DNA of 64,000 nucleotides from Platerodrilus igneus (taxonomy: Eukaryota; Arthropoda; Insecta; Coleoptera; Lycidae): the NCBI GenBank assembly GCA_036346225.1, contig JARFIW010000108.1, positions 3,410,001 through 3,474,000 of the forward strand. The letters run 5' to 3'. Positions 5,635-51,849 of this stretch are shown here, one piece after another. Position numbers and translations under genes: made by a program. How positions within the stretch are numbered: the stretch's first letter is position 1; every line of letters begins with the position of its first letter. The notes beneath the pieces are model-generated. The model saw nothing but the letters and a program-made list of their open reading frames with translations, had not been told where the DNA came from and searched no databases.

Positions 5635-6110
5635 GCTCTAAATTATACAGTTTTGCTGATTTACAAACCCATTTAAGTTAAAATGAGCTTTATCGGTCAT
5701 AATAAAATCAATAAAAAATCGTTTTCTTCTCTTGTCAATCATTAAAATCGTGCAGCGCAGTTTGGGCATCGCGGATAATCCGCAAATTCTTAATTCCTGC
5801 GCCATTTGAGTCTTACATGGTAAGAGATGCAAACCGTGTAAAATCCGCTGCAGTGAGGTAAAGTTAAATAGCTTGCCTCCGAATTGACGTCTCTGGTTTT
5901 TCTTCGATATTCTCCTTCACACGATCTACGGTCAATTCTGTTCTAACTCTTTGTGGTCTCCTGGTACGTAACAGATCAGTTACCGAACCTTGTTGTTGTA
6001 AACGAGTAATTAAGGAACGAATCATTGATTTCGAAGTGCAACTCCAACACTTAAATACGATGATGTGCTCGCTGCGTTCTAACAATTAAACGCTGCTTTT
6101 CAAAGTAAAA
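5635..6110 (-). pseudogene. decayed mariner/Tc1-like transposase, N-terminal half
   Basis: Minus-strand reading, 5' to 3' of the gene. Near 6105-6060 is a decayed start (EKQRLIVRTQ). At 6085-5864 lies a helix-turn-helix region with RSLITRLQQQGSVTDL, RRPQRVRTELTVDRVKENIE and PETSIRR. At 5832-5638 is the beginning of the catalytic domain, with KTQMAQEL, a MIDKRRKRFFIDFI stretch, and TDKAHFNLNGFVNQQNC, where TD corresponds to the first acidic residue of the DDE/D triad. This arrangement matches insect transposases whose HTH is followed by a DDE domain. The rest of the catalytic domain is missing and the segments are separated by frame breaks, so it is dead. The 5' end of the same element occurs again at 7788-7915. 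Confidence 0.8.
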
Positions 6111-6270
6111 CTAAACGATTTTGGTGCGTTGTAGAGTACCTATTATTCAATGTAGTACCTCCGGGTGGAGCATTGGAGACGTGGCCGCAAGTAAAGCGGC
6201 CCTTATTCAAATTAAAATGTAGAGTACCTATTAAAATTTTCCAAACTACTTGGTACGATATCTGAAACAA
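6055..6270. repeat. transposon end, copy 1 (interrupted by a 73 bp insertion)
   Basis: This segment aligns in direct orientation with 7788-7915. Shared blocks include GTTCTAACAATT, TAGTGCGTTGTA or GGTGCGTTGTA, and AACTACTTGGTACGAT followed by CTGAAACAAAAGA. The alignment is broken here by the insertion at 6146-6218. It is the 5' end and flank of the minus-strand transposase element. Confidence 0.75.
6131..6233 (+). mobile_element. 73 bp two-hairpin retroposon with 15 bp target-site duplication (copy A)
   Basis: A perfect 15 bp direct repeat, GTAGAGTACCTATTA, lies at 6131-6145 and 6219-6233. The 73 bp between begin with CAATGTAGTACCTCCGGG, continue through GCATTGGAGACGTGGCCGC and AGCGGCC, and end in an A/T-rich tail. 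Hairpin 1 pairs CAATG with CATTG and ACC with GGT around the TCCG loop. Hairpin 2 pairs GGCCGC with GCGGCC. The related transposon end at 7788-7915 has no such insert at the matching place, so it serves as an empty site. A second copy with its own duplication is at 28859-28958. I infer insertion by target-primed reverse transcription. Whether it is a complete tiny element or a 5'-truncated SINE or LINE tail is open. Confidence 0.8.
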
Positions 6271-6590
6271 AAGAAAATAGAAATAAAATAATTAAAATGG
6301 TTATAAAAAGTCCAAACGCCGTCTTGATTATGGGCTATCCAATATTTTCATATTTTTTATTGTATTTTGATATTAAATCTTATAATAATTGCGGTATTGG
6401 AAATTGAATAAGTTTATAATGAAAACGGTCGTAGTTTATGCATGTTAATCTCAATTATATTTATTCTAACTTACATGGTAGTGTGTTTAGACAACGCCGT
6501 AACAAACGGCTTAGTTTAACCTCAATCTGTCAAAATTTTTGTTTACAGCTTTTATACATTTGTGACCTATTTGTTGTTTATTTACAGAAA

Positions 6591-7375
6591 ATGACTTCAG
6601 AATCACAACAAAATCATGAAATATACCACGAACGACAAGTAAGAGAGCTATGCGCATTACACGCATTAAATAACCTATTTCAATCAAAAGGCTTTTTTAA
6701 AAAATTAGAATTAGACCATATTTGTCATTCACTTTCACCTAATGTATGGATAAATCCACACAAGTCGTTATTAGGACTCGGAAATTACGATATAAATGTT
6801 ATTATGAAAGCTTTACAAAGTAGAGGTTATGAAGCAATTTGGTTTGATAAACGCAAGTAGTAGAATTTATTGGAGTTTATATTGCATGCATAATTAATGT
6901 ATTATTTTAGAGATCCGATATGCTTGAATGTAGATAATATTTTTGGTTTTATCCTAAATGTGCCAACCGATTATAAATTAGGCTTCGTAACGATACCATT
7001 ACATCGACGACATTGGATTGCACTAAGACAAATAAATGATAATTATTATAATTTGGATTCGAAGTTTCAAACGCCGGTTATTATAGGAAATGTATATTTT
7101 AATAGCATCTAAGAATTTTACTTATTCATTTATGATTTTAGAAATTTGATTTAATAGAGTATTTGAAAGAACAATTAGAATCAAAAGAAAAAGAGCTGTT
7201 TTTAGTTGTGGCATCTGAAGTAGATAAGACACAAACCTGGTTATCTAATCAAGCAAAGTATTGTACGAACGTAATTGAAAAAGATGTCGAAATAGTACAA
7301 TTAAAAGACATTATGTGTGATGGTGTTAATGTGACAATTAACCCTCTGTGCAGTAATAAATCAGGTGGTCGATAA
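6591..7375 (+). CDS. Josephin-domain deubiquitinase (JOSD1/JOSD2 type), three exons
   Basis: A cysteine protease of the Josephin family, which removes ubiquitin; it is related to ataxin-3 and to the short Josephin proteins JOSD1 and JOSD2. Exons are 6591-6856, 6911-7091 and 7142-7375, with introns of 54 and 50 bp, giving 226 codons. Visible active-site motifs: [16 protein letters not shown] with the nucleophile Cys21, HRRHWIAL with the catalytic His123, and YYNLDSK with the third residue Asp138. The alternation [13 protein letters not shown] and GYEAIWFD is typical of the fold. The protein is longer than mammalian JOSD2 (188 aa) because of a C-terminal tail of about 40 residues of unknown role. 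I prefer the ATG at 6591: an in-frame ATG at 6438 would add a hydrophobic, unrelated leader, and TTTATTTACAG ending at 6587 looks like the acceptor of a 5'UTR intron. No ataxin-like UIM or polyQ tract is seen. It lies between two direct copies of a transposon end but looks intact. Confidence 0.95.
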
Positions 7376-8745
7376 GGTGTTCTATTTGGCTGTAACGCCA
7401 AATTGTTTGGATACAATTTTAATATATAATAACAAGCCGTATACTTGTAACACATCTTTAAATTTATCTGAATGTGCCTCGTAATGTCTAAAGATATCAT
7501 TTGCATGTATAACAAATAACGAAGATGGATTACAAGTAATATGGTGACCTTTTTATGTAATTTTTTTACAATGACACAGCTACCTAAGCAATGTGTAATG
7601 TGTATTAATTATTGGTATATGAAAGATGTGTACAAGGACTCAAATTCCTTTTAAGAAGATAAATATTTTGGTGGTCGTGTATGTATTTTGATTGGAAATG
7701 GCTCCCTGAGTGCAAATATGTTATAGATTTTTCACAAATAAGCCCTTAAAAAATTTTAAGTTCATACTGAAGGTTCAACTCTGACGTTAGTTGACGATAT
7801 ACTCGATGTGTTCTAACAATTGAATGCTGATTTTCTAAGTAAAATTGAATATTTTAGTGCGTTGTAAAGTAGTGAATTTAAACTACTTGGTACGATTACT
7901 GAAACAAAAGACGGAATTAACATAAATAAAAAGTTATCAAAAGCTGTTGTGGAAATTATTTAAAAATCACATGTTGTGCATATCAAGTTTTACTTGCATT
8001 TGCTTTGATCCCACCTTGCTTCTACTTTTAAAAAGAAAAGTTGCATCGTGTTTCGCTGTTTAATCAGGTATTTATGTTTAAATTTTTTTTCTCTTTCAAT
8101 TTGAATTCTAATTTATGTTCTATTTAGATTATGGCCTCTTGCATCTTTGTGTAAGAAGTATAATCGTGGTCTGTTTGTAGTGGTTTTGAACGCAGCGAGT
8201 TAAGGTTTGTGGCTTGGGAGCGGCCTTTTTAAAAACCATTTCCAAACTTCTTAACAATTTGTTTTATTATACAGAAATTAATGATGAAATTTTACAAAGC
8301 TTGAATTAAAATTATTCTAAATCCGAAAATTAATATTAATTGTACTAAAATGAGTAATCTAATGAACTGTAATGCTAAAGCTGATCGATGGATTAACTGT
8401 CGTCGACTGAGGCTCCCGGGCTTTTTATATTATCCCTACCCCCTCACATGACTGTGGGAACTTGCAGATCTCATGTCTGCTTACACTTAATACTATTTAT
8501 AAATACAATGTTGTAATCTTAATTTCTAAGTGATCACAGTACCTGACCGCCTGTGACCTGACATCTGCGATACAAAGTAGCGTTTACGTTCCCATGAACG
8601 TTAATAAACTGTATAAATTGTCTTTGATTTACTTTGTTGCACTTCACTTAGCACTTTCTTAATATTTCTAACAATTTCCTAATTTATTCTGTTTTTTTTA
8701 TACATATATCAATTGGGGATACATAACTAGCGTAAATAATTATTG
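7376..8745. other. 3' flank of the Josephin gene and intergenic DNA
   Basis: It contains the second transposon-end copy at 7788-7915. Otherwise I see no gene; no convincing poly(A) signal stands out close to the stop codon. Confidence 0.5.
7788..7915. repeat. transposon end, copy 2 (uninterrupted)
   Basis: It aligns directly with 6055-6270 but lacks the 73 bp insertion. Read on the minus strand it contains ENQHSIVRTHRV, matching the decayed transposase start near 6100. The coding homology stops where the copy is truncated. Confidence 0.7.
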
Positions 8746-28344: not shown

Positions 28345-28620
28345 TGGAACTAGTTGGACGCGTACCTCCATTGTTTCCTATTTTGAGCTAACCTACACAT
28401 TTCCTGAAAGTCCCACAGCGTATACCTTTCACTGTCTGCGTGCAATAGTCTGATCTAGGTCTACCTCTACCTTTCTTTTTCTCCTTTCTCTGCTTCTAAT
28501 ATATTCCACACTATTCCCTAATGCCTTAGTATGTATCCTATCTTCCCTATTTTTTACTGTTTTCTACATATTTCTTTCTTCCCCTACAATATCTACACCT
28601 TGTGTTTTATTTCAGAAAAT
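28345..28620 (-). pseudogene. LINE ORF2 C-terminal fragment (third copy)
   Basis: On the minus strand, TKALGNSVEYIRSRERR and KKKGRGRPRSDYCTQTVKG are followed, after a one-base frame change, by CRLAQNRKQWRYASN. This is the same C-terminus as in Y1 and Y2, extended further 5' but broken by stops and a frameshift. It lacks the shared 3' UTR. Confidence 0.65.
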
Positions 28621-28858
28621 TTAAACTATTATATTTACTATTATATTTCAGAAAATATCACTTGAATTTTATATAGTAATTTTTATTTCAGAAAGCATTA
28701 ATTAAACTACAGATTTAAACTTGTATTTGAAAGTAATTAGTTGTGTTTCAGAAAAATTCACTTAACTACATATATACTAACAGAAATACTCATATTTTTA
28801 ACGATAAATGAAAATATATTTCTGCAGTACTTATTCATCGGCCAACAAGCATGTCTTC

Positions 28859-28958
28859 CATTGCTAATACAGTATAATGTAAGTAAGGGCCGCTACACGT
28901 GCGGCCACATCCCCAATGCTCCACCCGAAGGTATTACATTGGGTCATTGCTAATGCAG
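28859..28958 (-). mobile_element. 72 bp two-hairpin retroposon with 14 bp target-site duplication (copy B)
   Basis: CATTGCTAATACAG at 28859-28872 and CATTGCTAATGCAG at 28945-28958 are direct repeats with one mismatch. The 72 bp between, read on the minus strand, begin ACCCAATGTAATACCTTCGG, continue GTGGAGCATTGGGGATGTGG, and end in an A/T-rich tail after AGCGGCCCTTAC. It starts at the same base of hairpin 1 and ends at the same place after hairpin 2 as the copy at 6146-6218. Hairpin 1 here is capped by a TTCG tetraloop closed by ACC/GGT. Confidence 0.8.
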
Positions 28959-51584: not shown

Positions 51585-51849
51585 GTGGAAGGACAACGCA
51601 CAAGGTCCCGGGTTCGAATCCCTACACGGTCCGATTGAAAAATGTTAGGCGAGCATTTTTCACAAAAATACACCCTCGTTCGGATGAGAGATAAAAGGGG
51701 GTCCCGCGTTAAAGATCCCTACCTTGCTTGGAACAGCAAGGGTTCGAGAAAATTCCAAATTTTCCAGGTAAAAAAAAACTCTTTTCCTGGCCAATGTAGT
51801 ACCTTCGGGCGGCGCATTGGAAAAATCACATATAAGGTGGAAGGACAAC
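51585..51849 (+). mobile_element. 239 bp SINE inserted in the retroelement, 13 bp target-site duplication
   Basis: GTGGAAGGACAAC occurs at 51585-51597 and again at 51837-51849. The 239 bp between start with a tRNA-like B box (GGGTTCGAATCCC at about 51608). A middle part contains GTTCGGATGAGAGATAAAAG and GTTAAAGATCCCT; this resembles the conserved central domain that unrelated metazoan SINEs share. The 3' part carries CCAATGTAGTACCTTCGGGC and GGCGCATTGG, the same UUCG hairpin as in the 72-73 bp elements. The A box is missing, so this copy is probably 5'-truncated. Removing it would make the flanking retroelement sequence continuous. Confidence 0.82.

Follow-up and report, generated by a model that had tools for sequence, protein, structure and literature searches.

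LINEs of the R1 clade and other APE-type LINEs have endonuclease, reverse transcriptase (RT), and RNase H domains and prefer particular sites. In LINEs, the points of 5' truncation are usually regarded as scattered. UnaL2 and UnaSINE1 are a LINE/SINE pair of the stringent type, with a common 3' stem-loop. The idea of a common LINE/SINE 3' end is mentioned in PMC5135761. For R2, template jumping and tandem copying have been described, and head-to-tail products are tied to target-primed reverse transcription (PMC11371274). Hebe/Athena retroelements form head-to-tail chains in subtelomeric regions (PMC2861651).

The elements that we describe here resemble each of these systems in part. As in the stringent pairs, a hairpin close to the 3' end is common to a SINE and a LINE, and the two elements use the same insertion sites; here, however, hairpin 1 is followed by a second hairpin in the LINE and by none in the SINE, and the LINE gives a discrete class of copies of ~70 bp. 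Like R1-clade and other APE-type LINEs, the LINE has these domains and a site preference, and it has named relatives in insects; it may resemble R1 in its motifs, but its target is a short motif instead of one gene. There are head-to-tail products as in R2, but with a full target-site duplication (TSD) between the units, and a succession in one orientation as in Hebe/Athena, but at many sites on many contigs and with one TSD reused. In the accessible part of the open-licence PMC text on same-site stacking, truncation hot spots, LINE/SINE common ends, and the SINE sequence (including MetaSINE), nothing was recognized as the same. This kind of element is familiar; what deserves a specialist's attention is how exact the end is, how the LINE contrasts with the SINE, and how TSDs space the stacked units. 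We are confident in the overall account, namely, an origin from LINE tails, a discrete 5' end, a SINE with a common hairpin, and TSD-spaced stacking, with trimming of the RNA and stepwise growth of the arrays as proposals. A more specific statement is rather doubtful as a whole: that an exonuclease-trimmed, hairpin-protected LINE remnant of ~70 nt would be an efficient template for retrotransposition and also that the LINE and the SINE would reuse single sites to give TSD-spaced arrays.

An earlier note on the window (the whole 64-kb stretch of DNA that was analyzed) had described two copies of one element, and this is borne out: there are two inserts, of 72 and 73 bp, both with TSDs (Table 1). 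The direct repeats also stand, but their lengths do not: the perfect repeat around copy 1 is 16 bp, not 15, and the repeat around copy 2 is 13 bp with one mismatch, not 14. Accordingly, the positions in Table 1 are shifted by a base or two from those in the note. Similarly, the two copies were said to start on the same base, which is correct to within 3 nt but not exactly, as they start 2 and 3 nt ahead of the same CAATG. Chance does not account for the recurrence of the unit: elsewhere in the window, it reaches a local score of 94 at best, whereas none of 100 mononucleotide shuffles of the unit scored above 36. The empty site that had been proposed for copy 1 is real, in that the joined flanks (6060-6145 plus 6234-6290) align with it. 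These related copies (~6060-6290 and 7796-7931) adjoin a Josephin-domain gene in exons at 6600-7400 of the window, whose protein has its closest relative in the firefly Abscondita terminalis (78%); the host insect is therefore probably a beetle. By eye, degenerate repeats with ATTTCAGAAA every few dozen bases are present at 28600-28780 of the window.

Table 1. Positions in the window of the two short inserts and of a partner SINE copy, and the order of units in stacked arrays
Feature	Positions	Strand	Details
Left TSD of copy 1	6130-6145	+	TGTAGAGTACCTATTA, 16 bp
Copy 1, short LINE 3'-end copy of 72 bp	6146-6217	+	TT + CAATG...; CAATG from 6148
Copy 1, hairpin 1	6148-6175	+	Loop TCCG; by folding
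Copy 1, hairpin 2	6183-6201	+	GGCCGC/GCGGCC; by folding
Right TSD of copy 1	6218-6233	+	Perfect repeat of TGTAGAGTACCTATTA
Empty site	~7796-7931	+	Insert absent from this related sequence; identity in 110 of 145 alignment columns
TSD at 3' side of copy 2	28859-28871	-	13 bp
Copy 2, short LINE 3'-end copy of 73 bp	28872-28944	-	ACC + CAATG...; more diverged; loop TTCG
TSD at 5' side of copy 2	28945-28957	-	13 bp, one mismatch
TSD of partner SINE copy (taken as such)	51585-51597	+	GTGGAAGGACAAC, 13-mer
5'-truncated copy of partner SINE-like repeat	51598-51836	+	Hairpin 1 near the 3' end (~51792-51821)
Second GTGGAAGGACAAC	51837-51849	+	
Array L011			SINE, then short tail
Array L028			LINE, then SINE
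Array L029/L071/L072			LINE, SINE, LINE, SINE
Array L046			SINE, then short tail
Candidate array L017			Looks like LINE, then older LINE

Both copies fold into two hairpins, as had been noted, with a UNCG loop in hairpin 1 (z = -3.33 and -3.48 relative to shuffles), while hairpin 1 of the window's SINE copy has an unremarkable fold on its own (z = -1.32). Among 61 tails, there were no compensatory changes in hairpin 1, and the tails hardly vary. The 72-bp unit starts at hairpin 1, and no tRNA-like head was seen by eye. Rfam found no RNA family in two loci with the short unit (L001 and L079), in a search that did not pick up the tRNA-like head of a 302-bp repeat either (see below). We also considered a MITE or DNA transposon and rejected it: by inspection, the two hairpins are neighbors within the unit, whose ends do not pair with one another.

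The 72- to 73-bp inserts derive by 5' truncation from a non-LTR retrotransposon, a LINE with endonuclease, RT, and RNase H, of which they retain the last ~70 nt. The earlier note had offered two alternatives, a minimal nonautonomous retroposon or the tails of a longer SINE or LINE; the second is right, with a LINE as the longer element, and the first is unsupported, as the short copies carry LINE haplotypes. Across the genome (2.71 Gb searched), exact patterns without mismatches gave 3,317 matches for 34 bases of the unit, 4,019 for 24 bases at the 3' end, and 3,397 for 34 bases of hairpin 1. We sampled 60 loci, which were the first in contig order (not at random) among the matches to the 34-base unit and 24-base 3' patterns; 17 of them were dropped because they represent the same place as another, which left 43 distinct tails. 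Most of these (39 of 43) run upstream of CAATGTAG into one consensus, which is the outcome that the earlier note expected if the inserts were not a distinct element. Specifically, 24 tails reach the edge of the fetched sequence (at least 1.49 kb), 15 are truncated at 117 to 1,231 bp (including two of 142 bp, L068 and L069, which may be a duplicated region), and 4 are just 63 to 73 bp.

Three of the long copies (L041, L039, and L047) align with each other over kilobases, and L041 ends in the unit. L041 contains Exo_endo_phos_2, RVT_1, and RNase_H domains, in several frames, and the other two contain RVT_1 and RNase_H. The closest relatives of the RT have 53% identity, followed by 43 to 44% in the beetle Trypoxylus dichotomus. 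Thus, the family has what is expected of an APE-type LINE: endonuclease and RT domains on the source element, a common 3' end, variable 5' truncation, and TSDs. About 300 bp of L041 (1,529 to 1,231 from the 3' end) is absent from L010/L050, and the copies at L029 and L071 start there; this part of L041 may be an extra insertion.

Although most tails belong to longer copies, the short copies do form a class with a sharp 5' end, so that the other expectation of the earlier note, a peak at 70 to 75 bp with duplications of 10 to 16 bp for a distinct class, also came true: a 4-nt interval at the foot of hairpin 1 holds ~350 LINE matches, and 20 of 20 copies have TSDs. To count such starts, we matched the 29 bases at the beginning of the unit and required a departure from the LINE at positions -6 and -4, so that copies with a start between -3 and +1 at the hairpin foot are caught. 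This gave 439 matches, compared to 1 match in an interval of similar size at -12 to -9 and 16 matches at +6 to +9, inside the hairpin. Of the 439 matches, 100 were listed, and these included 80 short LINE tails and 20 SINE copies, which were set aside; this implies ~350 LINE matches overall. In 47 of the 80 listed short LINE tails, there was no base in common with the LINE upstream of CAATG. Given the base composition, we estimate that 0.45, 0.45, and 0.37 of sequences pass the filter at -3 to +1, -12 to -9, and +6 to +9, respectively, and correcting for this gives totals of roughly 780, 2, and 43. By count, the short copies are ~20% of LINE tails (relative to the 3,397 exact tails); in the direct sample, 3 of 43 were 72 to 73 bp. 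We therefore put at roughly 10 to 20% the share of LINE tails in a discrete class, whose starts lie no more than ~3 nt from the foot of hairpin 1 on its 5' side.

We fetched 20 short copies, which were the first matches at -3 to +1 that were not SINEs. All 20 have direct repeats at both ends, and the insert is 70 to 73 bp in 17 of them; the other three (L080, L096, and L097) scored 68, 69, and 61 bp, and in these the detected repeat runs into the neighboring tail or into the element. If trimmed to the first TG, the TSDs are 13 to 15 bp in the 20 fetched copies and 13 to 16 bp across 29 short copies. TSDs of this length that start with TG are as target-primed reverse transcription gives. Furthermore, 19 of 31 short tails are identical to the tail of a long copy (this set of 31 includes a few misfiled or odd copies: L049, L061, and three matches at distance 8). 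The top haplotypes of the short copies (11 and 7 copies) are the commonest and the joint second among the long copies (17 and 5 of 46).

The LINE has a partner, a SINE-like repeat of 302 bp. The two have hairpin 1 and the final TAATG in common, but the intervening stretches are different. By eye, the 302-bp repeat contains words that resemble box A and box B, while neither ARAGORN (on L029) nor Rfam (on L028, L029, and L015) found a tRNA in it. The exact 32-base tail of the SINE occurs 17,805 times in the genome. SINE tails that start at the foot of the hairpin gave just 38 filtered matches, of which 8 have the LINE-like prefix AAC and 30 do not. The SINE filter is narrower than the LINE filter, as it only accepts starts at the CC of CCAATG (of the 80 short LINE tails, just 33 have a C in that place). 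If ~0.46 of sequences pass the filter, foot starts account for under 0.5% of SINE tails, or maybe ~1% if we allow for the narrower filter. We estimate that ends at the hairpin foot are about tenfold rarer in the SINE than in the LINE, despite the common hairpin 1. Therefore, hairpin 1 alone seems not to set the rate in the LINE. In one place (C46:3193728-3193820), two SINE-type copies of hairpin 1 lie 58 bp apart, and these are possibly two short SINE tails at one site.

We propose, tentatively and from the positions of these ends, that the short class comes from trimmed RNA: a 5'-to-3' exonuclease would degrade the LINE RNA until it met the stable hairpin 1, and the remnant of ~70 nt, which would keep the whole 3' recognition signal, would be copied to its end. 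We put the chance that this is correct at a little short of even. We favor trimming slightly over fall-off of the RT, which is a close rival, mainly because the rate in the LINE seems to depend on more than hairpin 1. Trimming also fits the position of the end: a 5'-to-3' RNA enzyme would be expected to halt at the 5' foot, whereas an RT that is blocked by a folded template would be expected to halt at the 3' foot, unlike the 5'-foot end that we observed. The earlier note had suggested that reverse transcription stopped at the hairpin foot. The end is indeed at a foot, but it is the 5' foot, beyond a hairpin that the RT has already copied, and such ends are much rarer in the SINE, although it has this hairpin too. 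On the other hand, three observations go against trimming: some SINE-type foot ends exist, the type of transcript is not the sole difference between the SINE and the LINE, and hairpin 1 lacks support from covariation.

In the fall-off explanation, the RT would leave the LINE RNA upon finishing hairpin 1, for example, if RNase H degrades the template and the end of the cDNA meanwhile snaps back into the matching DNA hairpin. In the predicted fold of the cDNA strand, the last CATTG is paired inside the hairpin; the LINE has an RNase H domain, and the insert ends where the cDNA hairpin is complete. Short ends of the SINE type, such as the 30 of 38 without the AAC prefix, also fit, but their rarity in a SINE with the same hairpin (an estimated ~1%, versus roughly 10 to 20% of LINE tails) does not. 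Fall-off would give the same ends if features that are found only in the LINE (hairpin 2 or the upstream sequence) matter. It is a serious possibility, if on balance somewhat doubtful. A nested promoter or a self-cleaving ribozyme that sets the 5' end of the RNA at CAATG would account for the discrete end as well, but we consider this improbable: Rfam identified no ribozyme family in five loci at E values up to 5, which is a weak test, given that the tRNA-like head of the SINE escaped the same search. A minimal retroposon of ~72 nt that forms a separate lineage would explain the discrete size and the clean TSDs, but it is very improbable, as the short tails share the haplotypes of the LINE, the sole variant that is seen at least twice in short copies and never in long copies is at one position (2 of 31 versus 0 of 46), and no promoter-like head was apparent by inspection. 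A truncation that is sharp to ~3 nt, for which a SINE carrying this hairpin provides a natural comparison, makes it possible to ask directly if the RNA template or the enzyme sets the truncation.

The short copies prefer sites of the type GC-TG(T/C), where the TSD starts at TG. Upstream of the TSD in 29 short copies (at least 3 of which lie behind the tail of another element), G is at -2 in 22 and C is at -1 in 15. The third base of the TSD is T or C in 66 of 74 3' flanks; the LINE flanks among these were preselected to begin with TG. Short copies at L049 (63 bp) and L073 (72 bp) inserted at the same base pair in two copies of another repeat, and there is a LINE at the corresponding place in L078. 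A target near TGCCTTACAACTT recurs in L009, L071, L080, L083, and L091 and in junction matches, and is sometimes followed by GT(T)AAAAA. This suggests that another repeat is a favorite landing site.

LINEs, short tails, and SINEs often follow one another at a single site, with copies of one TSD between the units (Table 1). In L015 (which is the place of L057), three SINEs, a short tail, and a truncated LINE succeed each other at one 14-bp site; TGTAGCTAAGTTGA stands between the units, and its last copy has a single change. By inspection, 6 of the 20 fetched short copies have a neighbor across the TSD, either before (L080, L083, and L097) or after (L082, L090, and L093). Genome-wide, TAATG followed by 9 to 15 bases and the head of the SINE gave 630 matches, versus 146 in a control with a spacer of 2 to 8 bases; with the short tail in place of the SINE head there were 97 matches, to which this control does not relate. 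Among the matches listed, T or C follows TAATG in 93 of 100 SINE-head junctions, compared to 46 of 98 for the control (98 of the 100 listed control matches were used), and this excess is predicted by the target motif. By eye, the TSD starts with CCTTACAACT in 9 of the 97 short-tail junctions and in 6 of 100 SINE-head junctions among the matches listed.

Probably, the arrays grow stepwise: each insertion would leave two intact copies of the preferred target, so that another insertion could follow. Because one site can be used repeatedly even without stacking, this is the simpler account. L097 and L098, which are ~16 kb apart, have the same TSD and the same right flank, but the upstream LINE tail is present in L097 only, and the difference fits one added insertion. 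Alternatively, an array might be made in a single event, in which the RT, having copied one element, continues onto the TSD overhang (which restores the primer) and from there onto a further element. The TSD copies are nearly identical in the arrays that we read, and template jumping by the R2 protein is described in PMC11371274. However, L097 and L098 differ by one unit, and the L015 array holds elements of different divergence, so a single event is unlikely. Unequal crossing-over between TSDs or elements is more unlikely still: it could produce the one SINE array that repeats the same junction five times (C2:136880-139699), but the neighboring units are of different kinds in L011, L015, L028, and L029. 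If the arrays did grow stepwise, they are a record of the repeated use of one site, and the order of insertion is perhaps partly readable. The five SINE junctions at C2:136880-139699 have the same TSD, TGTCTGAGTGAAGA, and are ~320 to 930 bases apart, which fits an array of about ten SINE units.
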